From assembly GCF_900104525.1 (NCBI RefSeq), contig NZ_LT629711.1:2356001-2420000 (forward strand): DNA of 64,000 nt, in the 5' to 3' direction. This document shows, piece after piece, positions 40,140 through 60,257 of the stretch; the stretch's first letter is position 1; the number at the start of each line of letters is the position of its first letter. The position numbers and the translations under genes were made by a program. Source of the stretch: Pedococcus dokdonensis. Lineage in GTDB: Bacteria > Actinomycetota > Actinomycetes > Actinomycetales > Dermatophilaceae. The notes under the pieces were generated by a model, which was not told the origin of the DNA, did no database searches, and saw only the letters and a list, made by a program, of their open reading frames with translations.

Positions 40140-42344
40140 GTGCTGGCTCCCATGGATAGGCCGGACCCCCAAGAGGCGCTCGCGCAGGTGCTGCGCGACC
40201 ACGGCCGACTGGTCGGCCTCCAGCCCGACCGGGTCCGCGGCCTGCTGTCCGACCTCCTGGGAGTGGGCGGACGAGACTTCCGGGCCGAGGTGGACGCCCT
40301 CGTCGTGGCGTGCGAGGAGGGGATCCCGGCACTGCTGCTCGACACCGTGGACTCGGCCGACACCGCGGTGACCGAGGGTGTGGGACTGCTCGAGGCCCGG
40401 GGCCTCACCACCGAGCGGGCGGCCGGGGCGACCCTCGCCTGGGCCTCGGCCCTGGAGGCGCCGGTGTCCGAGTCCCTGTCGTCGTCGATGCGGTCGGACC
40501 CGTCAGCACCGTCCAGCGGAGGAGACCTGCTGTCCGCCGCGGCGACCTCGTTGCCTGCACCCACGCACAGGACCCCCACCGTCGAGCCGGTGCCCACTCG
40601 GCCCTCGCACCCGTCGAAGGGGCCGGAGCCGGACCGCGAGCCCAGGACGAATCCGGCCCAGGGTCCCGCGCGGTTCCCCTTCGCCCGCGGCAGGACGGCA
40701 GGAGTCGCAGCCGGACTCGTGGCGGTCATCGTCGCAGGGACCGTGGGGGCCACGATCCTGTGGCCCGACGGACCCAGCAAGGCCGACACCCGACCGGTCG
40801 CGGCCCAGGGTGGCACCTTGCGGCTGACCACCAGCGGCGGCCTGACCTGGGACCCCATGGAGACGACCGACCCGGGCTTGCGCCTGTTGATGAACCGCGC
40901 CCTCTACCGCGGGCTCGTCGCTTTCGCCGCAGCCGCCGACGACGAGCCGGGCACGCTGGTCGCCGACCTGGCCACCACGACCGGGCAGACCGTCGACAAG
41001 GGCAGGACGTGGGTGTTCGCACTGCGGCCGGACGCGCACTGGGAGGACGGGAGCCCGGTGACGTGCGCTGACGCCAAAGCCGGGGTGGCCCGAGCCTTCG
41101 GCGCCGCCCGGTTCTTCGGCTACTCCTACGAAGCCGCCATCCTCATCGACGTTCCCCACACCTCGGACGGCCTACCCGTCTACAAGGGCGCAGGCACCGC
41201 GGGCCGGGCCGCCTTCGACAGCGCGGTGCGGTGCTCCGGGTCCGACCTGACGATCCGCCTGCTCGGGCCCGAGTACGAGTTCCCGCGCTACCTGGCGCTC
41301 CCCGAGCTGGCGCCATACCGAGCCGCAGCCCCGTTGGGGCCCGGCAAGCGTTCGATGTCCAGCGGGCCCTACGTCGTGGAGGCTTCCGCGGCGGACGCGG
41401 CAACCTTGGTGCGCAACGCACACTGGTCGCGGCAGGCCGACTCCCTGCGACCCGCTGTCCCGGATCGCCTCTCCATCACCACCACGGACGTCGACGACGT
41501 CGCATCGGGGCTGGCGACCGATGCCGTCGAGTTCCGCCGCTCGGTCACCCTGAGCCCTCTGCCGGCGTCTGCCGACAAGGCCTTCGCGCAGTCCCCGGAC
41601 CGGACGCAGGTGGCGCCGGCCGGGGTGACGGAGATGCTCGTGCCCAACCTCAGGACGACCACGATGTCCTCCACGGCCTACCGCCGGGCCTTCGCGCTCT
41701 CCACCGACCGGTTGTCGTACGTCGCCGCCATGGGAGGACCCGCCGTGTCGATGGTGCAGCGCTCCACGGCGGGCACCTACCACAGCAGTCCTTCGGTCGC
41801 GTTCGACGTGGCGCAGGCACGGTCGCTGCTGGCCGGCGACAAGCCGCGCCTCAAGGTGGCCTTCCACGCCAGCCCCGAGTCCGAGCGTGCGATGACTGCG
41901 CTGGCCGCGGGATGGCGCCAGGCCGGCTTCAAGGTCGACCTCGTCGCCTTCAGGGGAAGCCGAGCCGCCTACGTGGAGGCCATCGCGACGGCGGCAGGGA
42001 CGACGACGTACGACGCGGTGCGAACCGACTACGTCGACAGCCTCAACCGCTCCGCGACGGCGCAGCTGGTCGACCCGCGGTTCGCCGTCGGCCCGTCGGC
42101 TGCCGAGGCCAAGACCGTCACCACCGCCATCGACCGCGCCATCGGCACCCCGCCGGGACCCGACCGCGACGCGGCCTGGCGCAGCGTCGACGACGTGATC
42201 GCCGTCCTCTCCCTCCTGGTGCCGCTCGCGAACCGGGCCTCCCTCGTCGGCAGCGGCTCCGCCGTGCGCGGTGCCACGACGTCCATCGAGTTCTCCGGGG
42301 TCCTCGACCCCCTCCGCATCTCCCTCGCCCCCGCCGAGTCCTGA
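40140..42344 (+). CDS. Membrane-anchored solute-binding-like protein with N-terminal helical domain (paralog 1)
   Basis: 734 residues. Residues about 10-108 are the helical domain shared with the genes at 42355, 43638 and 56049 (pattern: RVRGLLSDLLG, then EVDALVVACEEGIPALLL, RGLT and WASALE). A Pro-rich linker leads to one membrane segment (about 186-207), and the rest (about 215-734) is a family-5 solute-binding domain (GGTLRLTTSGG, WVFALRPDAHWEDGSPVTCAD). Instead of a lipobox it is held by the membrane helix, with the helical domain inside. No permease or ATPase of an ABC transporter lies nearby. GTG at 40140 follows AGGCGACT; ATG at 40152 is an alternative. It opens the plus-strand run of this island. 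Confidence 0.82.
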   Translation: MLAPMDRPDPQEALAQVLRDHGRLVGLQPDRVRGLLSDLLGVGGRDFRAEVDALVVACEEGIPALLLDTVDSADTAVTEGVGLLEARGLTTERAAGATLAWASALEAPVSESLSSSMRSDPSAPSSGGDLLSAAATSLPAPTHRTPTVEPVPTRPSHPSKGPEPDREPRTNPAQGPARFPFARGRTAGVAAGLVAVIVAGTVGATILWPDGPSKADTRPVAAQGGTLRLTTSGGLTWDPMETTDPGLRLLMNRALYRGLVAFAAAADDEPGTLVADLATTTGQTVDKGRTWVFALRPDAHWEDGSPVTCADAKAGVARAFGAARFFGYSYEAAILIDVPHTSDGLPVYKGAGTAGRAAFDSAVRCSGSDLTIRLLGPEYEFPRYLALPELAPYRAAAPLGPGKRSMSSGPYVVEASAADAATLVRNAHWSRQADSLRPAVPDRLSITTTDVDDVASGLATDAVEFRRSVTLSPLPASADKAFAQSPDRTQVAPAGVTEMLVPNLRTTTMSSTAYRRAFALSTDRLSYVAAMGGPAVSMVQRSTAGTYHSSPSVAFDVAQARSLLAGDKPRLKVAFHASPESERAMTALAAGWRQAGFKVDLVAFRGSRAAYVEAIATAAGTTTYDAVRTDYVDSLNRSATAQLVDPRFAVGPSAAEAKTVTTAIDRAIGTPPGPDRDAAWRSVDDVIAVLSLLVPLANRASLVGSGSAVRGATTSIEFSGVLDPLRISLAPAES

Positions 42345-42354
42345 AGGAACCGTC

Positions 42355-43626
42355 ATGACCGACAACCTGCCCGACGCAACAGCCGAGGCCCTCCATCGCG
42401 CCGTGCGCGACCTGGGCCGTCGAGTCGGCGAGAGCCCCGACCGGGTGCGAGCCGTGCTCTCCGACGCCCTTGGCGTGACCGCACGCGACCACCGATCGGA
42501 GATCGACGCCATCGCCCTCGCGAGCGAGGAGGGGGTGCCGGCGACGCTCGTGGGGCGCGAGGACTCGGTGCTCACGGAGTCGGACGTCGCGCTCGACGAC
42601 ACCCGACTGCGCTCGCGCCTCGTGGAGCGTGGGCTCTCCGACGGCGCGGCCGACTACGCCATCAGCGCGTGGGCCTCCGCCCTGGGCTCGGTGACCAGCC
42701 TGAGCGTCACCGGTGGACTCACGTCGGCCGGATCGGGCGTGGGCGGTGGGTCGCTCTCCGACCCGGCGACCGAGCTCCCTGCCGCGCTTCCGCCCGAAGC
42801 AGCGGCGGAGGGTCAGTCCGAGGGCGCCACTGGCATCCTCGGGTTCCCGGTGGCGGCGGAGCGCCCGGCGAGCCGCCGACACGTCCTCCACCTGGGACGA
42901 CGGGCGATGGCAGGAGCCGCGGCCGCCGTCCTGGCGATCGTCGGTGCGGTCGCGTGGTTCTCGACGACGGGTGACGACCCGACCAGGACGGTCCTCGCCG
43001 ACTCCGCCCTGCGCCCGGCGCCGACGAGCACCACCTCCGCCATCACGACGACGGCACCGCCGACGACCGGGCCGGCCGTGACGACCAGGCCCACCAGGAA
43101 ACCGACCACCACCCCCACCAAGAAGGCCGCGACCACCAAGACAGCGCCGGCGCGGCCGTCCAGCACGACGCCGAAGAGCACGACCAGGCCGAAGCCGACC
43201 AGCTCGTCGACCCCGGTCAAGACGGCTTCGGCAACCAAGAAGCCCGCACCGCCCCCGCCCCCGCCGCCCGCCCCCAAGACGCTCGTCGCCGGGAACTCCA
43301 GCGCCTCCTGGACCCCGCAGTTCTACGAGACCGGGATCAACCAGTGCGTCGACTTCGTCCCTCCCCACGCGGCCAACAACGTCTGCCAGTGGCGGCTGAA
43401 CGTGGTGAAGAAGGGGACCGTCACGACGTGGTCCATCTCCAGCGCACAGTCCGTGCAGGGCCACGGCTCCGTGTCGATCGACGGCAAGACGATCCTCTAC
43501 AAGCCCCACCACAACGGCTACTTCACCGACACCGTCAAGTACCGCCTGACCGGCAGCGGTGTCACCAGCAACTGGGGCTACATCTCGATCACGGTCTACT
43601 GCAACCAGCAGATGACCTGCTACTGA
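42355..43626 (+). CDS. Single-pass protein with shared helical domain and four-Cys external domain (paralog 2)
   Basis: 423 residues. The cytoplasmic N-domain (about 8-110) carries PDRVRAVLSDALG, EIDAIALASEEGVPATL and the late WASALG. A linker, one membrane helix (MAGAAAAVLAIVGAVAWF, about 185-202), and a Thr/Pro/Lys-rich stalk (about 205-305) follow. The last 115 residues form a beta-rich domain with four Cys arranged C-x12-C ... C-x5-C, matching the C-terminal domain at 56049. It would face outside. No database family is recognised by me. It follows gene 40140 by 10 bases and shares its operon. Confidence 0.8.
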   Translation: MTDNLPDATAEALHRAVRDLGRRVGESPDRVRAVLSDALGVTARDHRSEIDAIALASEEGVPATLVGREDSVLTESDVALDDTRLRSRLVERGLSDGAADYAISAWASALGSVTSLSVTGGLTSAGSGVGGGSLSDPATELPAALPPEAAAEGQSEGATGILGFPVAAERPASRRHVLHLGRRAMAGAAAAVLAIVGAVAWFSTTGDDPTRTVLADSALRPAPTSTTSAITTTAPPTTGPAVTTRPTRKPTTTPTKKAATTKTAPARPSSTTPKSTTRPKPTSSSTPVKTASATKKPAPPPPPPPAPKTLVAGNSSASWTPQFYETGINQCVDFVPPHAANNVCQWRLNVVKKGTVTTWSISSAQSVQGHGSVSIDGKTILYKPHHNGYFTDTVKYRLTGSGVTSNWGYISITVYCNQQMTCY

Positions 43627-43637
43627 GGAGGACGCTG

Positions 43638-44237
43638 ATGAACCGCTGGTCCGACCCGGTGGGCGAAGCCCTTGCCGTCGCGCTCGCCGGGGACCCCTCG
43701 GCCTTCGCCGGCCAGCCCTCGCAGCTCCGCCTCAAGCTGTCCAGGCTGCTCGGCGACGACGCCCACACCTACCGCGCGCAGGTGCACCTCGTCGTGACCG
43801 CCCTCGACGAGAACGTCCCCGCGGAGCTGCTGGCGGCCGCTCCCCTGAGCGCCGCCGATGTCGACCGCCACGCCCAGATCCTTGCGCAGGCACGCGGCTG
43901 GACGGACGAGGCGGCCCACACCGCGATCGGGCTCTGGGTGCGCGCCCTCGACATCGACGCGCAGCTCGAGCCGGTCGCGCGGCACGCGTCGGACGGCGGC
44001 TGGCTGGTCTCCACCCCCTCTTCGGGGAGCACCTCCTCGCTCGAGCCCGCTCCGGTCTCCGGCGGCGGTCGGGTCTCAGGCGAGGACGCCTTCCCCGACG
44101 GCGACGCGGAGGACGTGGGGACCGGGAGCAACCGGGACTTCCCGGTCACCGCGGGGGCGCAGGACGCCTCGACCGTCCTGCCCCCGACCGTGGACTCGAC
44201 CCGATGGCCACTGAGCTGCCCGACCGGTCGTCGGTGA
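43638..44237 (+). CDS. Shared helical domain protein without membrane anchor (paralog 3)
   Basis: 199 residues. Most of it (about 3-105) is the same helical domain: QLRLKLSRLLG, AQVHLVVTALDENVPAELL, then AHTAIGLWVRALD; it is the most diverged of the four copies. The remainder is a Ser/Gly/Pro-rich linker with no membrane helix. Its stop lies 34 bases inside the next gene, which starts in another frame with a Pro-rich linker and two membrane helices, so a lost or frameshifted link to that gene is possible. It may act as a soluble competitor or as an adaptor. Confidence 0.72.
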   Translation: MNRWSDPVGEALAVALAGDPSAFAGQPSQLRLKLSRLLGDDAHTYRAQVHLVVTALDENVPAELLAAAPLSAADVDRHAQILAQARGWTDEAAHTAIGLWVRALDIDAQLEPVARHASDGGWLVSTPSSGSTSSLEPAPVSGGGRVSGEDAFPDGDAEDVGTGSNRDFPVTAGAQDASTVLPPTVDSTRWPLSCPTGRR

Positions 44238-44893
44238 TCGCCCTGCCCCCCGAACGGGCTCCGGGATCGGCCGACGCCGGGGCACGTCGTGGACAGGACG
44301 AGAGGCTCGGCGCCTCCCCCGCAGTCCCGGGCGGCCACGCAGTCCAGGGCGGCCACGCAGTCCAAGGCGGCCCGTCCAGTCCGGCCGGCCCCTCCGGGCC
44401 AGACGGCCCAGCGGCCCCCTTCCCGCCGTCGCAGCGACTGGCCATCGGCCAGGCGGTGTCACACGAGCCTTCTCCTCCCACCGCCTACTACGCCTTTCGT
44501 GGCAAGAACCCCGACCTCCGGTTCGCTGCGCTGGCCGTGCTGCTGGTCCTGGCCATCGGGGCCATGTTCCTCCCCGGCGGTCCACTGCGAGGGATCGCGC
44601 TGGCGGTGGTGACGGCCATCGGGATCCTGATCCCCACCAAGCTCGTGCGCAACGGGGTGATGGTTGCGGACGACCACGGGTTCCGTTGGTACTCGGCGAC
44701 TTCCAAGACCTCGTCGGCTGAGGTCAACCAACCCTGGTCCGCGGTCCGGCTCGCACCGGGCCAGCCGACCCGGCTGCTGTTGACGCCCGACGGCGACGTC
44801 TGGCTCAGCCGCCGCAAGGGGCTCGCCGAGGCCATCGCCTCCCGCACGCCCGCCACGCTGCCCACCGATGCGTCAGCGGCAGGTCACCGATGA
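44204..44893 (+). CDS. Pro-rich two-helix membrane protein
   Basis: 229 residues. The N-terminal 80 are Pro/Gly/Ala-rich with HAVQGG repeated. Two membrane helices (FAALAVLLVLAIGAMFL at about 107-123 and a second about 130-146) form a short hairpin, and a cytoplasmic tail with segments GFRWYSATSKTSSAEVNQPW follows. No family was recognised. It overlaps the preceding gene by 34 bases in another frame. It ends 5 bases before the convergent kinase gene. Function unknown, but its place among membrane signalling genes suggests a structural part. Confidence 0.65.
   Translation: MATELPDRSSVIALPPERAPGSADAGARRGQDERLGASPAVPGGHAVQGGHAVQGGPSSPAGPSGPDGPAAPFPPSQRLAIGQAVSHEPSPPTAYYAFRGKNPDLRFAALAVLLVLAIGAMFLPGGPLRGIALAVVTAIGILIPTKLVRNGVMVADDHGFRWYSATSKTSSAEVNQPWSAVRLAPGQPTRLLLTPDGDVWLSRRKGLAEAIASRTPATLPTDASAAGHR
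44329..44364 (+). repeat. Two 18-base tandem coding repeats
   Basis: GGGCGGCCACGCAGTCCA occurs twice in tandem (44329-44346 and 44347-44364), followed by a degenerate third copy, coding the HAVQGG repeat in the Pro-rich linker. Slippage could change copy number. Confidence 0.8.
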
Positions 44894-44898
44894 GTCCC

Positions 44899-46185
44899 TC
44901 AGGTCGCCAGCCGGGCCTCGACGTCACCGAAGCGCAGCAGGGTGTCCGGGACGAGGGCCACGGCTTGCCCGGGGGCGATGACGGCGACCTCGCGGCCGGG
45001 GATCCTGGCCTCCCACCCTGCAGTGCTCGTGTTGCGCAGTCCCCACACGTCTCGGGTGGGGTGGCGGGTGACCTCGCCGATGGTGCGTTCGTAGTCGTAG
45101 TCCTTCGCGACGTGGTGGCGGTAGACCCGGGTGCCTGCTCCGAGCGCGAGCTCGGTGTGGGGGAAGACCAACCGCAGGGGCGGGGGGAGGACCGCGGAGC
45201 ACCCCCAGCACGTGGTCGGCACGCCGGCGCCGGAGAAGTTCTCGCGACCGCACGCGTCACAGCTCCGGACGGCGTCGAGGAGCCGGGCCAGGTTGACCCG
45301 CCAGACGCTCTCCCGCACCCGGCGCTGCGGGTTGCGGATGCCCTCGCCGAAGGCCTGGACGAAGAGCCGCTTGACCGGGTCCGGGTGGATGGCCCAGTTC
45401 GCCAGGACGGTCTGGTGCTCCACCGGATCGGGCGCGTTGGAGTCGTCGTCGGGATCGAAGACGAACAGCGGGCGCTCGCCGAACAGGTCCCCCTCGGCGT
45501 CCCGGTCCAGGCAGGCGTACTCGAGCTCGCGCCGACCGAGGAGGGGATGGTGCACCATCAGGACGTAGAAGATGAGCACGGCCAGGGAGTAGAGATCGGT
45601 CTCGCTGCCCGGCTTCGCTTCTCCTCGCACGATCTCGGGCGCCATGAAGCGGCGCGTCCCGAGGACCCCGCTCTCGCTCTCACCGTCCACGCCCACGTTG
45701 TCGTTGTCGCAGATCAGGATGGCGCCCGACCGAGGGTCGAAGGAGACGTTGCCGAAGCTGATGTCGCGGTAGCAGAGGCCCTGCGAGTGCAGCAGCAGGA
45801 ACCCGTGTGCCAGGCCGAGGCTGAGCCGCACCGCGAGGGACGGTGTCACGTCGACGCGCCCCCTGAGCATCTCCCCCAGGCCCACGAACTCGGGCGGTCG
45901 GATCGGCATCACGTAGCCGAAGCTGCCGTCCGGCGCGCTGACCACTTCCATGGGCCACAGGAACATCGGACCCGGGCTGTGCCTCGCTGCGACGGCCGTG
46001 ATGGCAAGCCGCTGCTTCTCGCTGACCGACCGCGCGGCATACCACTTGAGCGCGAGCCGTCGCGCCGAGCCGTCCTGCGGCACCAGCTCGTGCACCGTGC
46101 CCTGGCCGCCCTCGCCGAGGAGCCTGCCCACCGTCCACTGCGTGGCAGAGCGCCGCAACGTCACCACGTCACCGGGCCTGACCAC
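44899..46185 (-). CDS. YegI-type protein kinase with zinc ribbon and FHA-like tail
   Basis: 428 residues, soluble. The kinase domain has the glycine loop GEGGQGTVHEL, the ATP-lysine at about residue 47 (ALKWY), the catalytic loop YRDISFGN (about 139-146, Tyr instead of His in HRD), DND in place of DFG (about 160-162), and MAPE at about 181-184. A C-x2-C ... C-x2-C zinc ribbon (about residues 308-328, CDACGRENF then CWGC) precedes a C-terminal FHA-like fold (YRHHVAKDYDYER, VWGLRNTSTAGWEARIPG). This shape fits the kinases of TerY-P triads such as E. coli YegI. GTG at 46185 has GGGAGG upstream. It is divergent from the vWA gene across 82 bases. Confidence 0.85.
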   Translation of the reverse strand: MVRPGDVVTLRRSATQWTVGRLLGEGGQGTVHELVPQDGSARRLALKWYAARSVSEKQRLAITAVAARHSPGPMFLWPMEVVSAPDGSFGYVMPIRPPEFVGLGEMLRGRVDVTPSLAVRLSLGLAHGFLLLHSQGLCYRDISFGNVSFDPRSGAILICDNDNVGVDGESESGVLGTRRFMAPEIVRGEAKPGSETDLYSLAVLIFYVLMVHHPLLGRRELEYACLDRDAEGDLFGERPLFVFDPDDDSNAPDPVEHQTVLANWAIHPDPVKRLFVQAFGEGIRNPQRRVRESVWRVNLARLLDAVRSCDACGRENFSGAGVPTTCWGCSAVLPPPLRLVFPHTELALGAGTRVYRHHVAKDYDYERTIGEVTRHPTRDVWGLRNTSTAGWEARIPGREVAVIAPGQAVALVPDTLLRFGDVEARLAT

Positions 46186-46267
46186 CAGCTGGCCCTCCCA
46201 TCCTCGACCACGCTCATGATGGCACCCACGGCGTGGTCCCGGGGACCGATTGGCCGGAGGTGCTGCG
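46186..46267. promoter_or_regulatory. Shared divergent promoter region of kinase and vWA genes
   Basis: The 82-base gap separates the minus-strand kinase (start 46185) from the plus-strand vWA gene (start 46268), so a divergent promoter pair is expected. It holds GGAGG as the ribosome site of the vWA gene. No -35/-10 pair or operator could be assigned with confidence. Confidence 0.4.
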
Positions 46268-46948
46268 ATGCCTGAACGACCCGGGAGCAGACTGGCCCAA
46301 CGGCCCCTGCACTTCTTCATCCTCGCGGACTGTTCCGGGTCGATGGCCAGTGACGGCAAGATGCGCGCTCTCAACGCCGCCATCCGCGAGGCGCTGCCCC
46401 ACCTCAGCGAGGTGGCGGACGGCAACCCCCACGCCGAGCTGCTGGTTCGGTGCATCGCCTTCGGCACGGGGGCTCGCTGGCACGTGGAGACACCGACACC
46501 GGTCGACCAGCTGGTCTGGGACGACCTGGCCAGCGGCGGCTACACCGACCTCAGCGCCGGCCTCGACCTGCTCAGGTCGGTGCTGACGGTGCCACCCATG
46601 GAGAGCCGAGCGCTGCCACCGGCCGTGGTGCTCATCTCGGACGGCATGCCCACGGACGAGTACACCGAGTCGCTGGAACGCCTGGAGGCCGAGCCGTGGG
46701 GAGCACGCAGCGTCCGCATCGCCGTCGGGATCGGTCGGGATGCCGACCACGCGATGCTGGTGCGGTTCATGGGCGACCCCGACGCCGAGCCGGTGCGGGC
46801 CAACAACCCTGAGGACCTCGTCGCGGCCATCCGCTGGGCGTCGACCCACGTGTCACGGGTCGCCTCCGCCCTGGTCCCAGCCGCCGAACCGGTGCCGGGG
46901 CGGGCGCCGCACGCGGCCCCCGCGGATGCCTCGGAGGTGGTCTGGTGA
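46268..46948 (+). CDS. TerY-type von Willebrand factor A protein
   Basis: 226 residues, with the complete MIDAS metal site: DCSGSM near residue 22, GGYTDLSAGL with the Thr, and ISDGMPTD with the Asp. The shape is that of TerY / YegL proteins that work with a kinase and a PP2C phosphatase. There is no membrane helix. ATG at 46268 follows GGAGG by 8 bases. Its last bases overlap the phosphatase start (GTGA, 46945-46948), so the two are co-translated. Metal-ion adhesion site is intact, so ligand binding is likely. Confidence 0.88.
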   Translation: MPERPGSRLAQRPLHFFILADCSGSMASDGKMRALNAAIREALPHLSEVADGNPHAELLVRCIAFGTGARWHVETPTPVDQLVWDDLASGGYTDLSAGLDLLRSVLTVPPMESRALPPAVVLISDGMPTDEYTESLERLEAEPWGARSVRIAVGIGRDADHAMLVRFMGDPDAEPVRANNPEDLVAAIRWASTHVSRVASALVPAAEPVPGRAPHAAPADASEVVW

Positions 46949-51181: not shown

Positions 51182-54100
51182 TCTCGGCTGACGGGGACGG
51201 CCAGCTCGGTCACCGGTCGGGCCTCCTCGTGGGGGCGCTCGACCAGCCTCGTCACCTGCACCAGCTCGGCGCGTCCACCCGCCACCAGGAACCCCCGGCC
51301 CTGCACCATCGGCACGACCGTGGCGGGGAGCCTGGTCTCCGCAGCCATCGCCGCCTCCGGCGTGGGCGCCAGGAGGAGTGCGACGCGCAGGCTCGCGAGA
51401 TAGCGCGCCCAGCCGTCGAAGAGCCTGGCCCAGTCCGCGGTGCGCGCCCCGACCACCGAGCGGAGACCGGAGCCCCGGGCGTCCCGCAGCAATCGCTCCA
51501 GCCGATCGCCTGCGGACGCCGAGGCACCGAGCGCCTCGGCGTCGTCGACCACCAGGACCACCGGCGCCGGGCTGGCCTCCACCGCGTCGAGCAGGTCGTT
51601 GAGGTCCTCGGGTCCCTCCGCCAGAGCGATCCGCCGGGGCATCGAGTCCCACCCTGCGGCCGAACCGCGACGCCGGGTGACGACCGCCAGCACACGGGTG
51701 GGGTCCTCCGCGAGCAGGCGACCCGCCACGGTCCGCAACGCCGTGGTGCGCCCGGTGAGCGACTCCCCCAGCACGACCAGGTGCGGTCCGTGGCGGGGAC
51801 CGAGCCAGACCGGTGCGGCATCGTCGCCGCCCACTCCGATCGGCACCTGTCCGGGCGGCCAGCTCTCCAGACCGGCAGCGGCGTCCTCGCTGTGGTCGGT
51901 GGGCAACCGGACGAGCCGGGACGGCCGACCGTCCGAGTCGCCTTCGGCGGTCGGCGGCACGGCCAGCTGATTGACGATCTGGACCTCGTGCCCCCCGCGG
52001 ACCAGCGCTCGCCCGGGGAGGTCCTCGGGCATCTCGCCGGGGCCCAGGCGCACGTCGACCACGGCGTAGTCGACGGCCTCCGGCTGGCGCAGGAGGATCT
52101 TCGTCTGGAAGTGCGAGGCCAGTGTCAGGCGCAGGTCGTTCACCTGACCGCAGGTCATCACGACGTGCACTCCCAGGCTCCGCCCTTGCGCAACGAGGCT
52201 GAGGAGCTGGTCGTTGAGGCGGTCCTGGAGGATCGGCTGGCTGGCCTCGCGGAACGTCGGGTAGTCGTCCACGACCAGCACCACGCGGGCATCCGTCGCC
52301 GGGTCGAAGCCGTGCTCCCGACGCTGCTCCACGACCCGTCCGACCCTGTCGACGAGGCCGGCGAGCAGCTCCAGGTCGTGGACTCCGGTGTGGCCGCCGG
52401 TGTGCGGCAGGTCCGCCACCTCACGCAGACCGCCTCGTCCGTCGATGACGTAGAGGTGGAGCAGCCGTGGCGACCGAGCCCGCACGAGCTCGGCGACGAT
52501 GCGCCGTACGGCCGTCGTGCGCCCTGACCGGAACACGCCGCTCACCAGCACGTTGGTCAGGGCGACGTCGACGTCGTAAGGGCGCTGGCGGGCCGCCTCG
52601 GGCTCGTCGAGCAGCCCGAGTCGCACGGTGAGCCGGTCGGGGTCATGGGGTCGGTCGACCGCGGAGGCTGCCAGCGCAGGGTCGTCTGGCCCCAGGTCGT
52701 GGGTCAACGGGGGGATCCAGAGCGAGGGCGGGGCCGTCGCACCGCGAGCACTGTGTGCGTGCGCCGCGTCCGACACGAGCCGGTCGAGCTCGGTGCGCAC
52801 CGGCGCCCCGCTCCGGGACTCGGGGTGCCACGTGGGCGGCGGTGGCTCGCCGAAGGGCGACACCCGGACGTCGACCGGGCCCGAGCCGGCGCTGCCGATC
52901 GTCACCCGTGCGGTCTGGAAGCCGACCAGCGTGCGCTCGGCCCCGCGCCGGAGATAGGCCCGTCCGGGTGCGTCGTTGGGGATCTGGGCGGCATCCCTCG
53001 AGCCCAGGATCTCCATGGACTCCGAGTCGTTGACGACCCGGAGGCAGAGCCAGATGTTGGTGTTCGCTCGGATGGCCGGGGTGATCACCCCTCCGGGGGA
53101 CTGGGTGGCCAGCAGAAGATGGATCCCGAGGCTTCTCCCTTGTGCCGCAATGGCGTCCAGCCTCGGCTTCACACGGGGCTGCTCGGTGACCAGGAGCGCG
53201 AACTCGTCGATGACGACGAGGAGGGTGGGCATCGACGGCGCCGCTTCGAGTCGTTCGTAGGCCGCGAGATCGGGCACCCCGTGGTCCGCGAGCACCCGCT
53301 TGCGGCGGGAGATCTCAGCGTCCAGCGACGTGAACGCGCGCTCCGAGAGCCGCTCGGAGGCGTCGAGGTCGGTCACGTAGCCCACGACGTGGGGCAGCCG
53401 CTCCAGGGCCGCGAAGGTGGCTCCGCCCTTGAAGTCGATGAGGAAGAGGGCCAGCCGGTCGGGCGGGTGCTGGGCGACGAGGGAAGCGATGAACGACAAC
53501 AGCAGCTCGCTCTTGCCGGCGCCCGTCGTGCCGGCGATGATCCCGTGCGGACCGTCGCGGCGGAGGTCGACCGACACCGGTTCCCCCTGGTCATCCGCAC
53601 CGAACACGCTCTGCACCCCGGGGCCGGGAGCCAGCCAGCGCTCGCTGACGCGCACCGAGTCGGACAGCCCGGAGAGCTCGAGGACACCTCGGGATCCGGC
53701 CCCGCCCGCCGCCTGGGACCTCGGGTCACGCAACCGCCCGAGGCCCACTGCGATCCGTCCCGCCGTCTCCGGGTCCACCGACGACGCGATGAAGGGACCG
53801 ATCGGCCCGTCCTCCCACAGTCCCTCAGCGACGACGTGGAGTGAGGCAGCCGCCCGGCACACCACCTGGCACTCCGGGGGCAGTGACCGGGCCTCGTCGT
53901 CCATCACGAGGACCAGACCGCCCTGGGAGCTCACCGCACGGATGGCGTCGATGACCGCAGCGTGCTGGGAGCCTCCCTGCCCGACCACCAGCAGCACCTT
54001 CGGCTGCGCTGCGCCGCTGCCCCCGGACTCGACCCGCAGCGCGGTCCCGAGGTCGCCCGCGTCGACGGCGCCGGTCGCCAGGAGCCGTGCGGACGCCCGC

Positions 54101-55779
54101 GACACGTGCGGGAGCCACCGCACCCAGCCCCAGTCGGGGCCCGCGCCGACGACGACGACCTTCAGGGCGGAAGGTGCGTGGAGGATCGCTGCCTCGAGGA
54201 CGGCCGAGGCGGTCATCGCGGTGATGACCGTCCGGGGGCCGGCGAGCCCCACGACTCCTGCGGACGGGGTGATGATCGGGACGTCCGGGGTGGCGGAGTG
54301 GAGGTGGCGGCACGCGGCCAGCTCATCGGCATACCGGCCGCTCGCCGGGCGCCGCGCTCCGGTCCCGGTGACCTTGGCCGCGCGCGCACGCGCGCCGGTC
54401 CCGAGTCGGATCCTGAGGAAGTCCTCGTCGCCGAGGCGTCGCTCCCACAAGCGTGGACCCTGGGTCGCCACCCACGTGGCCAGCTCGGCGCGCTCGGGGC
54501 TGAGGGTGCGCAGCGCCTCGGCCTGCGCGCGTCCGATCCCCTCGAGGCGTTCGTCGAGCCGGCCCAGCTCGGCGTGGAACGTCTTCACGCCGTGCTTGCG
54601 CCTCGACTGGTCACCGAGGATGCCGAAGCCGATGGTGGCCAGGCCGGCCACCGCCGCGACCCCGGCGAACAGCATGGCCGCCGGGTAGCGGACCGCCACC
54701 ACGCCTGCGGCCAGGACGGCGACCAGTCCAGCCGCGACCTGCCAGCCGACCCCCCGGCCGGACAGCTCGGTGCCTTCGGGAAGGTCCGGGGCGGCCACCT
54801 CCACCAACGACACCGGTGCCGTCGCCCTCGGCGGGGTGTTGACCGTGGTGTCAGGGGCGTCGGCGAAGGGTGGGTCGCCGGCGGACGCGGCGGGGACGAG
54901 GGCCTCGTCGAACGCGGCGACGGTCAGGACGTCGCCGCGCCGAAGGGGCACGGAGCCCCAGGCGTCGGTGTTGCGCAGGAGCGAGCCGTCCTCACGCCGG
55001 TAGAGGCACCAGGACGTGCGCGCACCGGCCGTGAGGTCGAGGTATGCCGCGAGGGCGGCCGCCACGTCGCCGACCGAGGTCTGGTCCTGGGTGCCGAGCG
55101 TGACGGCCTGGACGGCCATCCCGGTCTCGGAGCGGACCTGGAGCTCGGTGGCAGGCGCGCGTCCGCGCCGGGCCGAGACCACGGACACCAGCGTTCGCGA
55201 GCGCCCGAGGGTGATGGTGTCACCCGGAAGGAGAGCCCTGGTCCCCCCGACTCGCTGACCATTCACCTTGGTGCCGTTGAAGGAGTCGAGGTCGGCCAGC
55301 AGGAGCCCGTCGGGGGTGGCGCTGACCGTCGCATGCCGCCGGGACACGCTGGGGTCGTCGAGGTGGAGGTCACTCGTCGCCTCACGGCCCAGCAGCACCT
55401 CGGCCCGCACCGGCACGCGGGCCGTCTCGACACCGTGGTGGGTGGCCACCAGCACTGCCTCGGCCGAACCCGGCGGAGCCGCCCGCACCTCCAGGACGAC
55501 CGCGGTGGACTCACCGAAGGCCACCTGTCCCCCTGGCCGCACCAGGACGGGCGCGGTGACCTGACGAGAGTCGACCCGCGTGCCGGTGCGTGAGCCGGTG
55601 TCCACCACCAGCATCCCGCCGTCACGGAGCTCGACCAAGGCGTGGCGGCGCGACACGGACGGGTCCGTGAGCCGGAGCCCGGCCTCCTGTCCCCGGCCCA
55701 CCGCGGTGCGCTCGACCACCGGCCAGACGAGTCCCGCATCCGGACCGGACACGAACCGCAGCAGCATTCGCCCGATCAT
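51151..55779 (-). CDS. EssC/YukB-like type VII export ATPase with FHA and ubiquitin-like domains
   Basis: 1542 residues. Two FHA domains (about 1-95 and 105-200; both end in SVSRRHA) are followed by a segment at about 205-300 that looks like a YukD/ubiquitin fold, then two membrane helices (about 340-380), and three FtsK/SpoIIIE ATPase domains. Domain 1 has an intact Walker A GTTGAGKSE (K about 756) and Walker B VVIDEFALL; domains 2 and 3 have GVFRSGRTT and GESLTGRTT with Arg instead of Lys. The order matches firmicute EssC/YukB more than mycobacterial EccC. ATG at 55779 follows GAGAGG; longer readings lack support. It is divergent from paralog 4. Confidence 0.9.
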   Translation of the reverse strand: MIGRMLLRFVSGPDAGLVWPVVERTAVGRGQEAGLRLTDPSVSRRHALVELRDGGMLVVDTGSRTGTRVDSRQVTAPVLVRPGGQVAFGESTAVVLEVRAAPPGSAEAVLVATHHGVETARVPVRAEVLLGREATSDLHLDDPSVSRRHATVSATPDGLLLADLDSFNGTKVNGQRVGGTRALLPGDTITLGRSRTLVSVVSARRGRAPATELQVRSETGMAVQAVTLGTQDQTSVGDVAAALAAYLDLTAGARTSWCLYRREDGSLLRNTDAWGSVPLRRGDVLTVAAFDEALVPAASAGDPPFADAPDTTVNTPPRATAPVSLVEVAAPDLPEGTELSGRGVGWQVAAGLVAVLAAGVVAVRYPAAMLFAGVAAVAGLATIGFGILGDQSRRKHGVKTFHAELGRLDERLEGIGRAQAEALRTLSPERAELATWVATQGPRLWERRLGDEDFLRIRLGTGARARAAKVTGTGARRPASGRYADELAACRHLHSATPDVPIITPSAGVVGLAGPRTVITAMTASAVLEAAILHAPSALKVVVVGAGPDWGWVRWLPHVSRASARLLATGAVDAGDLGTALRVESGGSGAAQPKVLLVVGQGGSQHAAVIDAIRAVSSQGGLVLVMDDEARSLPPECQVVCRAAASLHVVAEGLWEDGPIGPFIASSVDPETAGRIAVGLGRLRDPRSQAAGGAGSRGVLELSGLSDSVRVSERWLAPGPGVQSVFGADDQGEPVSVDLRRDGPHGIIAGTTGAGKSELLLSFIASLVAQHPPDRLALFLIDFKGGATFAALERLPHVVGYVTDLDASERLSERAFTSLDAEISRRKRVLADHGVPDLAAYERLEAAPSMPTLLVVIDEFALLVTEQPRVKPRLDAIAAQGRSLGIHLLLATQSPGGVITPAIRANTNIWLCLRVVNDSESMEILGSRDAAQIPNDAPGRAYLRRGAERTLVGFQTARVTIGSAGSGPVDVRVSPFGEPPPPTWHPESRSGAPVRTELDRLVSDAAHAHSARGATAPPSLWIPPLTHDLGPDDPALAASAVDRPHDPDRLTVRLGLLDEPEAARQRPYDVDVALTNVLVSGVFRSGRTTAVRRIVAELVRARSPRLLHLYVIDGRGGLREVADLPHTGGHTGVHDLELLAGLVDRVGRVVEQRREHGFDPATDARVVLVVDDYPTFREASQPILQDRLNDQLLSLVAQGRSLGVHVVMTCGQVNDLRLTLASHFQTKILLRQPEAVDYAVVDVRLGPGEMPEDLPGRALVRGGHEVQIVNQLAVPPTAEGDSDGRPSRLVRLPTDHSEDAAAGLESWPPGQVPIGVGGDDAAPVWLGPRHGPHLVVLGESLTGRTTALRTVAGRLLAEDPTRVLAVVTRRRGSAAGWDSMPRRIALAEGPEDLNDLLDAVEASPAPVVLVVDDAEALGASASAGDRLERLLRDARGSGLRSVVGARTADWARLFDGWARYLASLRVALLLAPTPEAAMAAETRLPATVVPMVQGRGFLVAGGRAELVQVTRLVERPHEEARPVTELAVPVSRDHEVTSEPAS

Positions 55780-56048
55780 CGCCACCTCTCGCAGTGTCGT
55801 CACGACGGTGCGTCGACTCGCTGGGCGTCGGCGCCCAGGCCGTCCCTGAAGACAATCTCCAAATGTCCGGGTGGGGAGCCGTCGCCCGGATGAGCACCCA
55901 CTCCGCCTTTTGCCGGATTCCCCGTGGTCGCTCGTGTGCTCGACTTCGCACAGGTCATCCCCGGCGACGCACCGTTGGGGACGGTCGGAGGAGTGGCGAT
56001 GGAGCCGAAGGTGATGGACGGCTCGCACCGCGGCAGCAGGATGCCGTC
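55780..56048. other. Divergent control region between export ATPase and paralog 4
   Basis: 269 bases with no gene, expected to carry promoters for the export ATPase (minus) and paralog 4 (plus). A short hairpin GGGCG-TCGG-CGCCC is at about 55824-55837. A/T-poor throughout except around 55851-55868. No operator could be assigned. Confidence 0.4.
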
Positions 56049-57470
56049 GTGAGCGAGGCAGAGGACGGGCTGGTGCGCGCGCTGCGCAACGTGCTGGCCG
56101 ATCACGGCCGACGGGTCGCCGAGCACCCGGAGCGTGTGCGCGCCCTGCTCTCGGATGCGCTGGGTGACCGCTCGCGCGACTGGCGCGCCGACATCGACGC
56201 CCTGGTCATGGCCGCCGAGGAGCGGGTGCCGGCCAGCGTCACCGCAGCGGTCACCGACACCGGCATGGACGGCGACGAGGAAGTCCTCGTGCGGGCGATG
56301 ACGCACCGAGGCCTGACCGTCGAGATGGCGCGCTCGGCGATCGACTTGTGGCGCTCGGCCCTGACGGCGGGCACCACCGCACCCCGTCGGCACGCCGACG
56401 CGGCCTGGCACCGACCGGCCCCTGCCCCGGAGCCGCGAGCCGTCGCGCCGGAGCCGCGGACCGTCGCACCCGAGCCCCGGGCCGTCGCCCCAGAGCCGCG
56501 AGCCGTCGCACCCGAACCGCGAGCCGTCGCACCCGAGCCCCGGGCCGTCGCAGGCGAGCCGCGGGGCACCGCCCCAGAGCCGCGGACCGTCGCGCCGGGA
56601 CCCGGGCCTGCCGCCTCCGCACCGCGAGCGAGCCGCCCGGGCACCGCAGCAGCCTTCGTCGAGCCCGCCGCACCGACCGAGATCCCCCTGGACCGCGGCG
56701 GACCCGCCGGACCACCCCCGGGTCCGACACCGGGTCCGACAGCGGGTCCGACAGCGGGTCCGACAGCGGGTCCGACAGCCGGTCCGGCACCGAGTCCGAC
56801 ATCGGGTCCTTTCCCGGCCACCCCACGGGGCCCGCACGCGCCGAGCCACGGCGACCGGGCGCCTACCCCGACGCTCGTCACCATGAGTCGCGGTCGGGTG
56901 CTGGCCATGGGTGGTGCGGCGGTGGTCGCGGCCCTCGTCGTGGGCGGCATCGGCGCCCGCCAGCTGACGCCTGCGCCGAAGGCCGCCCTCGTGGCGGCGA
57001 CCCCCACGGTGAGCACGTCCACCGTGACCTCGACGAGCACCTCTGTGGAGACCGTCACGGTCACCGCTGCGCCCCGGACCGTGCGGTCGACCGTGGTGGT
57101 CAACGCAGCGAAGCTGCGTGCCCGCAACCTGAGCGGCACGACGATGACATACGTGACCTACACGGGCTCGTCGGGCTGCGTCCTGAAGCCCAAGAAGGGG
57201 CTCCCCTACCGAGCCTGCTTCACGTGGGACACCGCCGAGGCGACCGGCACGGTGAAGAGCTGGAAGCTCACTTCGGCCAAGGTCATCTCCGGCACCGGCA
57301 CGGTCTCGGTCTCCGGGAAGCGGATCAACTACCACTACACCCGCAACGGTCCCTACACGACGAAGGTCCGTTACACGATCGAGGGCGGTGGCTACGTCAG
57401 CACGGGCGTCTACACCTTCGCCGTGCAGTGCAACCCGAACTTCACCTGCAAGCGGGCGTTCCCGTTGTGA
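56049..57470 (+). CDS. Shared helical domain protein with repeat linker and four-Cys external domain (paralog 4)
   Basis: 473 residues. N-domain about 3-105: PERVRALLSDALG, DIDALVMAAEERVPASV, RGLT, AIDLWRSALT. The linker carries a seven-residue repeat EPRAVAP (about 127-185) and a four-residue repeat GPTA (about 225-253). One membrane helix (about 284-303) precedes a Thr/Val-rich stalk and a C-terminal domain (about 357-473) with C-x12-C ... C-x5-C, the same spacing as paralog 2. GTG at 56049 is used; the frame continues upstream but is compositionally non-coding. It precedes the WXG100 genes, so probably part of the same secretion system. Confidence 0.8.
   Translation: MSEAEDGLVRALRNVLADHGRRVAEHPERVRALLSDALGDRSRDWRADIDALVMAAEERVPASVTAAVTDTGMDGDEEVLVRAMTHRGLTVEMARSAIDLWRSALTAGTTAPRRHADAAWHRPAPAPEPRAVAPEPRTVAPEPRAVAPEPRAVAPEPRAVAPEPRAVAGEPRGTAPEPRTVAPGPGPAASAPRASRPGTAAAFVEPAAPTEIPLDRGGPAGPPPGPTPGPTAGPTAGPTAGPTAGPAPSPTSGPFPATPRGPHAPSHGDRAPTPTLVTMSRGRVLAMGGAAVVAALVVGGIGARQLTPAPKAALVAATPTVSTSTVTSTSTSVETVTVTAAPRTVRSTVVVNAAKLRARNLSGTTMTYVTYTGSSGCVLKPKKGLPYRACFTWDTAEATGTVKSWKLTSAKVISGTGTVSVSGKRINYHYTRNGPYTTKVRYTIEGGGYVSTGVYTFAVQCNPNFTCKRAFPL
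56430..56597 (+). repeat. Eight 21-base coding repeats (EPRAVAP)
   Basis: About eight 21-base units in tandem coding the heptapeptide EPR(A/T)VAP, several of them close to identical. They sit in the linker of paralog 4 and could vary in number between strains. Confidence 0.85.
56721..56804 (+). repeat. Seven 12-base coding repeats (GPTA)
   Basis: Seven 12-base units based on GGTCCGACAGCG, coding GPTA/GPTP, in the same linker as the 21-base array. Three adjacent units are identical. Confidence 0.85.
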
Positions 57471-57499
57471 CGTGCGTCGGCGCCCCTCCCCGCCTCGTC

Positions 57500-57531
57500 T
57501 TCAGCGCCTCTTCAGCGCCTCCCGGTTTCCT
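57500..57531 (+). promoter_or_regulatory. Motif upstream of WXG100 gene, copy A of a shared element
   Basis: 32 bases that match 59286-59317 at 25 of 32 positions. The best part is AGCGCC, two or three variable bases, then C(C/G)GGTTTCCT. A small inverted repeat CCGAC-ACCGC-GTCGG follows at 57547-57561, and the WXG100 ATG is at 57583. The second copy stands in the same relation to another small secreted-type gene. A shared regulator or RNA processing site is a reasonable reading. Confidence 0.5.
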
Positions 57532-57582
57532 CGTCCCATCCACCCACCGACACCGCGTCGGAACCGACACAAGGAGCACACC

Positions 57583-57843
57583 ATGGCCATCGCCGGCGAC
57601 CTCGAGCAGCTCATGACCCTTCAGCAGGTCTTCACCCGCAACAGCCAGTCGGTCGAGGAGCTCAGCTCCTCCATCCGCTCGCAGCTGCAGAACACGCGGT
57701 GGGAAGGCCCCGCCGCAGACCGCTTCCGCTCCGCCTGGAACACCGAGTTCGAGACGGCCCTGCGTCGCCTCGGTGAGGCCTTGTCCGACTGCTCGTCCGA
57801 GGTGAGCCGCCGTCGTGAGGCGCTCGCCCAGGCCGGCAGCTAG
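57583..57843 (+). CDS. WXG100 family type VII secretion protein
   Basis: 86 residues, the typical size. A helical hairpin is predicted, with the turn marked RWEGPAADRF (WxG motif, residues about 40-42) and a charged C-terminal helix EVSRRREAL. Such proteins are exported as dimers by EccC/EssC ATPases. There is no YxxxD/E tail motif as in mycobacterial partners. AAGGAG precedes the ATG by six bases. A second small helical protein is encoded 12 bases after it, the probable dimer partner. Confidence 0.92.
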   Translation: MAIAGDLEQLMTLQQVFTRNSQSVEELSSSIRSQLQNTRWEGPAADRFRSAWNTEFETALRRLGEALSDCSSEVSRRREALAQAGS

Positions 57844-57855
57844 TCCGTCAACGCC

Positions 57856-58146
57856 ATGTCCGTCACGGGTATCGCCGAGGACCCCGTCGCACTGCGCGGG
57901 ACCGCCGTGCAGCTGCGGCGGGAGGCGGAAGTGATCGTCTCCGCCGCGCGCTCCACCGCACAGAAGGCCGCGAGCATGGCCTACGCCGGCCCTTCCGCGG
58001 ACATCTTCCGCACCAGCATCGCGGCAGCCGCGTCGGCATCCGGCCAGCTCGCCGCGCGGCTGGTCGAGCTGGCCCAGTGGCTCGACACCTGTGCCGTGCA
58101 GGCCGAGGCCGAGATCGCGGCCCGTCGCGCAGCAGGGCTGACGTGA
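57856..58146 (+). CDS. WXG100-like partner protein without tryptophan
   Basis: 96 residues with the same hairpin shape: two Ala-rich helices joined by AYAGPSADIF (about 42-50), where AxG stands in for WxG. The C-terminal half has ARLVELAQWLDTCAVQ and ends REAAGLT-like. In ESX pairs one of two proteins often lacks the tryptophan. It is encoded 12 bases after the WXG100 gene, and its own stop overlaps the next gene (GTGA), so they form one transcript. Confidence 0.8.
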   Translation: MSVTGIAEDPVALRGTAVQLRREAEVIVSAARSTAQKAASMAYAGPSADIFRTSIAAAASASGQLAARLVELAQWLDTCAVQAEAEIAARRAAGLT

Positions 58147-59300
58147 CGACCACGGAGAGCAGGTCGACCCCGCAGACCATGTGGTCCGGGGTCGACGTGC
58201 TGTTCCTGAGCGCCACCGGCAGCGACGCCGACGTGACCCTGTGGGCCATCCCGGCAACCGGGGCCGCGCCCCCGGCTCCTGACCAGCTGCGCAGCGTCGC
58301 CGAGGAGCACGCGGCGGCGCTCGCCGACGCCGGTGACCTGACGCCCGGTGCCCTCACCGAGCACGCCGACGGGCTGGGGGGCAGCTACCTCACCCGCGCG
58401 TTCACCCAGGCGATGGACGGCTCGTCCACTTCGATGGCCGCGTACTTCGACACCCAGGGCGCAGTCGCCGTGGCGATGGTCCGCGCCCCCTCCGGTGACG
58501 ATGTGGAGGGCCTGCTCGCGGACCTGGTCCGGGCCAACCGGGCCCGATTCGTCCTCGCCGCCGAGGACGTCCTGGCCCTGGCCGACGTGACCGGGCTGGC
58601 CGCCCCGCCCCTCAGTCCCGCTGCCTACCCGCCCGACGCGTCGGACGAGGTGCGTCGGGCAGCCCACCTCGCCGCCCGAGGCTCCTTGCACGCCCGTGGG
58701 CTGCTCGTGCCCGAGGGCGACCGGCTCGTGCCCGTCGCCGAGCTGGGGGCGGCCCTGACCCTGCTGCTCGACGGCGACCGCATGCTGCTGGCCTCCAGGG
58801 CGGCCGGGGCGGGAGTGCACTCCACCTCCCTCATCGGCGGGCGGGACGGTGTGGTCGCGACGCTGGGCCCGGGCGGCTGGGGCCTGCTCGAGCTCTCCGT
58901 GAGCCCCGCCGGCCAGGCCGTCGAGAGGTATGCCGGCCTGCTGGCGCCGCCGCCCGAGGTCCGGACCGACGATCCCCCCGGTCAAGGCGATCCAGGCGGT
59001 TCCGGCGACATGGGGAGTGCCGAACGCTTCACCGCGAGATTCACGGAGGTGCAGGGCTGCGTGGACAGCTCCACCGGTCCCGAACAGCTCCGGGGTTCCC
59101 GCGCCCTCATCTCCATCCGTGGCGTGCGTCAGCGGGGGGACGACGCTGCGATCTTCGAGAACTGCTGGGTCGAGGACGCCGACGGCCGGCTCTGGTCGGT
59201 CGACCCCACGGACGACCTCGAGTCGGCTGTCCTCACCCCGTCCGAGGACTCCGCGGTGGGCGCGAGCCTGACCCGCGCACTCGACTTCAGCAGCCCTTAA
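58143..59300 (+). CDS. Uncharacterised secretion-linked protein (EspG-like?)
   Basis: 385 residues, soluble, not recognised. It contains a helical, Leu-rich stretch near residues 173-225 (RRAAHLAARGSLHARGLL, VAELGAALTLLLDGDRMLL) that faintly resembles the EspG-type chaperone fold, but the match is weak. The C-terminal part from about 285 has two Cys (VQGCVDSST, FENCWVED). GTG start overlaps the preceding stop (GTGA). Its location directly after two WXG100-like genes suggests a chaperone or adaptor for their export; this is context only. The end of its coding region overlaps the second copy of the shared motif. Confidence 0.65.
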   Translation: MTTTESRSTPQTMWSGVDVLFLSATGSDADVTLWAIPATGAAPPAPDQLRSVAEEHAAALADAGDLTPGALTEHADGLGGSYLTRAFTQAMDGSSTSMAAYFDTQGAVAVAMVRAPSGDDVEGLLADLVRANRARFVLAAEDVLALADVTGLAAPPLSPAAYPPDASDEVRRAAHLAARGSLHARGLLVPEGDRLVPVAELGAALTLLLDGDRMLLASRAAGAGVHSTSLIGGRDGVVATLGPGGWGLLELSVSPAGQAVERYAGLLAPPPEVRTDDPPGQGDPGGSGDMGSAERFTARFTEVQGCVDSSTGPEQLRGSRALISIRGVRQRGDDAAIFENCWVEDADGRLWSVDPTDDLESAVLTPSEDSAVGASLTRALDFSSP

Positions 59301-59317
59301 GCGCCAACGGGTTTCCT
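59286..59317 (+). promoter_or_regulatory. Motif upstream of the candidate substrate gene, copy B of a shared element
   Basis: Matches 57500-57531 at 25 of 32 positions; begins inside the end of the gene at 58143. The hairpin CGCCTTC-CAC-GAAGGCG (59328-59344) follows, in the same relative place as the one after copy A. The next ATG is at 59379. The two copies mark the genes most likely to be exported proteins. Confidence 0.5.
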
Positions 59318-59378
59318 GAGAACTCGACGCCTTCCACGAAGGCGACGATCACGGAGCAGGCGACCCGAGGAGGACACC

Positions 59379-60257
59379 ATGACTGACTGGATCTGGCTGG
59401 ACCCGCACGAGCTCGCATGGGCGGGGGTCCTGCTCCGCGACGTGTCGCAGGAGCTCATCGGCAGCACCCAGCGCACCCGCACGGCCTGTTGCGCGCCCGG
59501 GCTCGGCCGTCACGCCGGGCCCCTCATGGCCGAGGCCGACACCGTGGTCCGTCAGGTCGACATGGTGACCGAGATCTACCTGCGACTCGCCATCGACGTC
59601 CTGCAGCGGGCCATCGCTGCGGTGCAGAGCCAGCAGATGGGATCGGTCGTGGGCAGTGTGGGATCGGTGTCCTCGGCGATCATCGGCGGCACGACGGTCG
59701 GCGGCTTCGTCCTCGGGGCCACCAGCCCGGTCACCACGTCCGTGGTCGGAGGGGTGACCCTGGGCGGTCTCGTCTACGGCGGGTCGGACGGGTCGTCACT
59801 GACGACGTCCGTGGTCGGCGGCACGATGGTGGGAGGTCTGGTCTACGGGACGGGCAGCCCGTCGCCGTCAGCCGTGTCCATCGGAGGCGGCTACTACCAC
59901 GGCGGGGGCAGCGGCATGGCCAGCGGCGTGATGGCCCTGGCGGGAGCCGCGCAGGCGTCCCAAGAGCGCCAACAGGCCATCCTCGCGCGAATGAAAGCCT
60001 CCGCCGGTGGTGGAGTCTCCAGCACCGACCTGGGCGCCCAGATGCTGGCCAAGATGAACACCGATGCGGCCCGGAAGCGGTTCGACGAGACAGAGGTCAA
60101 GATCGCTGCCAACCAGCCGTTCGCCGGCATCGTCCAGGCCGAGAACGCCGATGCCCTGGACGGCGGCAACCGTGCGCGGGTGATCGAGGACCAGAAGCGC
60201 TTCGAGCAGAAGTTCTACGAGGACAAGTTCTACGACGACAAGCGGGACGGCCTCTGA
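59379..60257 (+). CDS. Candidate type VII substrate with Gly-Val repeats
   Basis: 292 residues. The N-terminal 90 look helical and WXG-like in shape (WIWLDPHELAWAGVLL, then VTEIYLRLAIDVLQRAIAAV). The middle (about 95-190) is a Gly/Val/Thr-rich zone with repeats of TTSVVGG(V/T)(T/M)xGGLVYG. The C-terminus is charged (DQKRFEQKFYEDKFYDDKRD). No known toxin or enzyme fold is recognised. AGGAGG precedes the ATG by five bases. It is the last gene of the island and is convergent with prs across 24 bases. Confidence 0.72.
   Translation: MTDWIWLDPHELAWAGVLLRDVSQELIGSTQRTRTACCAPGLGRHAGPLMAEADTVVRQVDMVTEIYLRLAIDVLQRAIAAVQSQQMGSVVGSVGSVSSAIIGGTTVGGFVLGATSPVTTSVVGGVTLGGLVYGGSDGSSLTTSVVGGTMVGGLVYGTGSPSPSAVSIGGGYYHGGGSGMASGVMALAGAAQASQERQQAILARMKASAGGGVSSTDLGAQMLAKMNTDAARKRFDETEVKIAANQPFAGIVQAENADALDGGNRARVIEDQKRFEQKFYEDKFYDDKRDGL

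Follow-up and report, generated by a model that had tools for sequence, protein, structure and literature searches.

A TerY-P triad and a type VII-like exporter share an accessory island in Pedococcus dokdonensis: a candidate phosphorylation-switched export system

We analyzed a window of 64,000 nucleotides from the Pedococcus dokdonensis genome (G000; one contig, 3.94 Mb) and describe in it a block of about 15 genes (window 40152-60257), hereafter the island, that combines a type VII secretion system (T7SS)-like exporter with a TerY-P kinase-phosphatase triad. The island is flanked by a CGNR zinc-finger gene (38351-38902) and prs (60282-61262). From left to right, the order is a gene at 39008-39859, three genes for proteins that share a domain (shd), a kinase gene on the minus strand, genes for a vWA protein, a PP2C phosphatase, an FHA-FHA-transmembrane-trypsin protease and a BTAD-FHA regulator, an export ATPase gene on the minus strand, a fourth shd gene, and genes for a WXG100 protein, its partner and two proteins named here by their start positions, 58143 and 59379. 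By their coordinates, the open reading frames (ORFs) of the vWA protein, phosphatase, protease and regulator follow one another with four-base overlaps, taking the earliest start of the PP2C ORF, and the partner gene (57856-58146) overlaps the 58143 gene to the same extent. Pfam matches and ORF coordinates recovered every element listed in an initial annotation of this DNA, to which we add a YukD-like ATPase segment, the transmembrane-then-outside layout of the shd proteins, the DcrB/EagR-like 58143 protein, the exported-looking 59379 protein and the insertion site.

The island kinase belongs to a subtype, defined by at least 52% identity over almost the whole length, that we found in six genomes of three families when searching the class, order and phylum as well as the island's own family and one further family; counts of genomes and loci here ignore relatedness. 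These genomes are P. dokdonensis, its closest named relative found, Phycicoccus sp. Soil802 (G098), a genome identified by its kinase as Cellulomonas sp. URHD0024 (G786), and three genomes of one genus in the third family (G321, G645 and G718). In all six, the kinase occurs together with the vWA protein, PP2C phosphatase, ATPase, WXG100 protein, partner, BTAD-FHA regulator, and 59379-type and shd proteins, although the gene order varies between island groups; the FHA protease is present in five and was not seen in the Cellulomonas stretch, where the contig ends inside the island. The three G321-family islands carry a second vWA gene. Kinases outside the subtype were found in 29 genomes, and none of the 22 loci read showed an ATPase or a relative of the island WXG100 protein at the thresholds used; the G321 family accounts for 16 of these ATPase-less triad loci, of which 12 had an FHA protease and 13 a transmembrane protein of the shd type. 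The initial annotation had named rare co-occurrence of kinase, phosphatase and exporter genes as evidence against a common function, but they stand together in all six genomes found with this kinase subtype, and the triad travels with export genes. The subtype itself is rare, being present in 2 of 186 genomes of its own family. Since the kit recurs in two other families, its parts probably work together.

The island is an insertion between prs and the CGNR gene. It was present in two of the 11 genomes of a genus search (P. dokdonensis and Soil802) and absent from the nine others, in which prs is followed by the CGNR gene, EamA, rplY and pth. The interval between prs and the CGNR gene was empty in eight of the nine and held one different gene in G143. 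The base composition of the island is unremarkable, a tRNA search found no tRNA, and no integrase was matched among the island proteins scanned with Pfam. The gene at 39008-39859, in the gap between the CGNR gene and the island, is weakly methyltransferase-like and has no match in the Soil802 stretch.

The kinase (44899..46185, −; Pfam PF00069, 5e-15) carries the Lys, YRD, Asn, DND and APE motifs and, C-terminal to the kinase domain, a zinc ribbon of the form CxxC..CWxC; its sole hydrophobic stretch falls within the kinase domain. The TerY-like vWA protein (46268..46948, +; Pfam VWA, 2e-5), aligned with nine other vWA proteins, keeps the metal ion-dependent adhesion site DxSxS..T..D as DCSGS, T and D. 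The PP2C phosphatase (46945..48174, +; PP2C_2 PF13672, 1.3e-32) has a Pro/Thr-rich tail and a weak hydrophobic segment at 276-294. Two plasmid relatives of the kinase both lie within VWA-PP2C-kinase sets, one of which adjoins a TerY-C protein. These features support the earlier assignment of the set as a TerY-P triad. The window vWA protein ends in VW, and 9 of the 10 aligned TerY-like vWA proteins end in VW or IW, with IW four residues earlier in the tenth; this may be a docking tail.

The EssC/EccC-like ATPase (51151..55779, −; FtsK_SpoIIIE, 1e-43) has two FHA stretches, a probable ubiquitin-like domain, a transmembrane region with a hydrophobic stretch at 343-372, and three ATPase domains. 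It resembles the models of both T7SSb EssC (421 bits) and T7SSa EccC (EccCa, 338 bits), each under the cut-off, and its nearest solved chain is 4nh0, the EccC of Thermomonospora curvata. In the three Micrococcales islands (P. dokdonensis, Soil802 and Cellulomonas), the Walker A lysine is kept only in the first ATPase domain and the FHA domains lie N-terminal to a YukD-like segment; the second FHA domain keeps the GR/SxxH/N pattern (G000 and G786). This YukD/EsaB-like segment, at about residues 208-292 (54904..55158, −), was matched in the Soil802 orthologue by the YukD hidden Markov model (HMM) at an E-value of 2e-4, below the cut-off, and hhalign aligned the six island ATPases with EccD N-termini over 69 columns (E 6e-5, probability 64%). 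A ubiquitin-like segment is therefore probably fused into the ATPase. A related FHA/FtsK ATPase was found in 133 of 149 family genomes (E ≤ 1e-50), and orthologues with at least 80% identity in P. dokdonensis and Soil802 only, among the matches listed.

The WXG100 protein (57583..57843, +; Pfam WXG100, 9e-7) has a WEG motif and a C-terminal tail, RRRxALxQAGS, that is identical in all six islands, whose WXG100 proteins are 62-99% identical to that of the window. Its WXG100-sized partner (57856..58146, +) has no WxG motif and reached no Pfam cut-off (best EspC, 0.028); the partner's relative in G645 matches WXG100 at 1e-5. A structure model of the 58143 protein (58143..59300, +) predicts a Mog1/PsbP/DcrB/EagR-type fold for its N-terminal part and is not usable for the long C-terminal part. 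Sequence identity with SciW, EagT6 and DcrB, proteins of the EagR/DcrB type, is 6-14%. SciW and EagT6 serve type VI secretion systems (T6SSs), and the predicted fold hints that 58143 might be an effector chaperone. The 59379 protein (59379..60257, +), as compared among islands, has a WXG100-sized N-terminus that looks helical by eye, a Gly-rich repeat middle and a variable C-terminus; it looks exported and is a candidate export substrate.

Two further proteins carry FHA domains. The protease (48171..50057, +) combines two FHA stretches (5e-27), a hydrophobic segment at 239-266 and a trypsin-like domain (Trypsin_2, 1e-19) predicted to lie outside. The EmbR-like regulator (50054..51181, +) has Trans_reg_C, BTAD (Pfam, 5e-31) and FHA domains, and its FHA domain shows the GR/SxxH/N pattern.

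The shd domain, about 100 residues long, is common by profile to four window proteins and to island proteins elsewhere. In shd protein 1 (40152..42344, +; shd profile) it is N-terminal and is followed by a transmembrane segment and an oligopeptide-binding-type SBP_bac_5 domain (PF00496, 9e-31) predicted outside; the strongest hydrophobic segment spans residues 186-209 (ORF from 40140), with a weaker one at 686-704. In shd protein 2 (42355..43626, +; shd profile; 65% identity in Soil802), a transmembrane segment, a Pro/Thr-rich linker and a C-terminal domain predicted outside follow the shd domain, and in shd protein 4 (56049..57470, +, start about 56049; shd profile) a Pro-rich linker precedes the transmembrane segment and the C-terminal domain predicted outside. 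The third gene (43638-44893) occupies two overlapping frames in the window, one encoding the shd domain (43638..44237, +; shd profile) and the other a second half with two hydrophobic segments (44204..44893, +; match to the Soil802 ORF), versus a single 398-residue ORF in Soil802; the split reflects either a frameshift or a sequencing error. Pfam gave no match to the domain at E ≤ 1, and direct sequence searches reached other island groups weakly (E 0.01 and worse). The shd profile matched the N-terminus of G321-family FHA proteases (E 2e-5) and the transmembrane proteins of ATPase-less triads (2e-4), and these two matched each other at 2.5e-8 in a profile comparison, against 0.29-0.89 for reversed or unrelated control profiles. 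AlphaFold2 modeled shd as a confident helical bundle (predicted local distance difference test score, pLDDT, 87), to which no PDB chain was similar at E ≤ 0.001. The position of shd before a transmembrane segment and a domain predicted outside suggests that it is likely a receptor adaptor.

We propose, at about even chances, that the island encodes an accessory type VII-like export system that is switched by phosphorylation and runs from sensors through the triad and FHA readers to the exporter. The shd-transmembrane-outside proteins would sense envelope or peptide signals, which would reach the kinase by way of the shd bundle in the cytoplasm, and the vWA protein would bridge kinase and clients. 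Phosphothreonine marks would be read by three kinds of FHA protein: the EmbR-like regulator, the membrane protease and, in the Micrococcales version only, the ATPase; PP2C would reset the switch. The ATPase, probably with its own YukD-like domain, would export the WXG100 protein with its partner and also the 59379-type protein, whose export the EagR-like 58143 protein might aid. For TerY-P triads in general, few inputs and clients have been established. Because candidate membrane sensors, FHA readers and an exporter accompany this triad in a soil genus, input, switch and output become testable in one locus.

Several results weigh against this proposal. FHA domains are absent from three of the six island ATPases (G321, G645 and G718), and a single clade for the six was rejected (approximately unbiased (AU) test, p 0.005). 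The FHA domain of the ATPase therefore cannot be a general control point, and the initial annotation's idea that the triad acts through it is not supported as stated. Because the one-clade arrangement is rejected while the WXG100 proteins stay 62-99% identical, the motor has been exchanged or inherited separately, and by these comparisons the islands vary less in their signalling-substrate kit. The window protease lacks the usual Asn in both of its FHA domains. The YukD link is moderate: the YukD HMM had no match in the P. dokdonensis genome, its island ATPase included, and the two ATPase sub-group profiles taken alone gave E-values of only 0.002 and 0.004 against EccD N-termini. Taken as a whole, the model of 58143 is of poor quality (pLDDT 54), and DcrB/EagR-like folds also occur in non-chaperones. 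Finally, EccB was detected in three of the six genomes (G786, G321 and G645); two of these, from different bacterial families, have T7SSa-type loci about 14-15 kb from the island (G786, C9 about 151-156 kb; G645, C1 about 26-37 kb), with EccB and EccD identified by HMM and EccC-like and mycosin-like genes by reading, so that borrowed membrane parts are possible there.

The island raises the question of whether phosphorylation targets the export motor itself or, instead, gene expression and proteolysis. In the latter case, the triad would control only transcription and proteolysis outside the cell membrane through the FHA domains of the regulator and protease, and the exporter would merely be a gene target. 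The FHA regulator occurs in all six islands and the FHA protease in five, versus FHA domains in three ATPases; the ATPase-less triad loci of the G321 family mostly keep an FHA protease and an shd-type transmembrane protein; and the rejection of a single exporter clade also fits. Yet the second FHA domain of the Micrococcales ATPases retains its GR/SxxH/N pattern, and this reading does not account for the presence of the kinase subtype beside an exporter in all six genomes found, so we hold this alternative to be possible but on the improbable side. A more ambitious version of the export proposal seems unlikely to hold as a whole: an unlisted actinobacterial T7SS type with a single-protein core (an ATPase with a built-in YukD-like domain and no Ecc/Ess partners), envelope sensors gating via shd into a TerY-P switch, a T6SS-like EagR-type chaperone loading an effector, and a signalling kit paired with two exporter lineages.

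A defence role against phage or rival cells has been proposed for extensions of Type III-A CoCoNuT operons, in which a published account (PMC11090510, citing Anantharaman et al. 2012) describes a TerY-P cassette that, like the island, has a TerY vWA protein, PP2C, a zinc-ribbon kinase, an EssC-like ATPase, and a WxG protein together with a non-WxG protein. Its authors regard the cassette as probably mobile and, from an earlier note that they cite, as sometimes stand-alone. The accessory nature of the island and the paired vWA genes of the G321-family islands would suit such a role. The CoCoNuT ATPase, however, belongs to a restriction system and is described as having an N-terminal coiled coil, no transmembrane segment and a single domain, D2, that is predicted to be active, whereas the island ATPases have transmembrane segments, a probable ubiquitin-like domain (with FHA in Micrococcales) and an intact D1 Walker A, and no restriction genes were seen. 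Pfam scans of the island proteins found no McrB/McrC-type, HEPN/helicase, nuclease or toxin domain, a PADLOC scan of eight of them yielded no more than partial matches to kinase, protease and FtsK domains, and the predicted orientation of the sensors is outward; we judge defence decidedly unlikely. That two uncoupled systems merely share a hot spot is very improbable: the exporter lineage does differ between island groups, but the same kit recurs in three families in different gene orders with interleaved genes, and in six of six genomes against none of 22 loci read.

We regard the island as a new variant of the kinase-vWA-phosphatase-linked T7SS. The general link between kinase and exporter is prior art, given the published T7SSc and CoCoNuT-linked TerY-P operons; our literature search found no report of this actinobacterial form. 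The T7SSc clusters of Bacillota described by Garrett et al. 2024 (PMC11217815) likewise unite a kinase, a cytoplasmic vWA protein, a PPM phosphatase, WXG100, a ubiquitin-like component and an EssC/EccC ATPase. That study detected no further T7SSa/b parts in T7SSc genomes and already proposed phosphorylation control via FHA. In that description, T7SSc is reported only from Bacillota and has a kinase with a transmembrane helix, a separate ubiquitin-like protein, an ATPase without FHA and an EspG-like TscG, and the passages on T7SSc mention no shd-type receptors or FHA-trypsin protease. The island differs in its zinc-ribbon kinase, the two FHA domains of its ATPase and the absence of a YukD match in P. 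dokdonensis. As regards an EspG-like protein, 58143 is predicted to be DcrB/EagR-like in its N-terminus, and its remaining part gave no usable model. T7SSd, the one new actinobacterial type in the same description (Olsenella and Bifidobacterium), shares an FHA-bearing ATPase with kinase and WXG100 but has a membrane kinase, TsdH and a giant Ig-like TsdI (1654 residues in Olsenella) and lacks a ubiquitin-like part; the longest non-ATPase ORF of the island is 734 residues. If our proposal is right, it would extend the kinase-vWA-phosphatase T7SS beyond Bacillota and add a probable fused ubiquitin-like domain.

The cluster has the broad type VII traits of an EccC/EssC-type membrane ATPase and a WXG100 protein. 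The suggestion that this machine operates without the usual Ecc and Ess partners stands in part: genome searches did not detect EccB in P. dokdonensis, Soil802 or G718, and an HMM search of the P. dokdonensis genome detected no YukD/EccD-type protein, so the T7SSa pairing of EccB with EccD was not found there, while the T7SSb components EssA, EssB and EsaA had no Pfam match among the island proteins, with no genome-wide search made for them or for EccE and mycosin. YukD matches above the cut-off were found in G786, G321, G645 and G718.

Other loci carry related genes. The strongest WXG100 match of the P. dokdonensis genome (8e-17; G000:C1:2581104-2581358) is solitary: the 20 kb read there held no match to an FHA/FtsK ATPase. 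Two further FHA/FtsK ATPases are present in this genome, one in a second T7SS-like cluster (G000:C1:1853000-1872999) with an island-like WXG100 gene, a MoxR AAA ATPase and a DUF58 gene, and the other (G000:C1:1918000-1937999) adjoining a gene for a T2SSE-type ATPase and others that look like Tad genes; in Bacillota, T7SSg/h are reported to neighbour Tad genes (PMC11217815). In 11 of the 16 ATPase-less triad loci, a small kinase-like gene whose product starts VxGIADYEF adjoins the shd-type transmembrane protein; a Pfam check, which covered one of these loci (L071) only, matched it to Pkinase at 1e-24. Four loci of genus g84, with genomes of 7-9 Mb (L052-L054 and L056), have TerY-P triads beside a small protein starting STYNFHG or similar, and near the triad of L053 lies a double-GTPase protein (DO-GTPase2, 1.5e-9).

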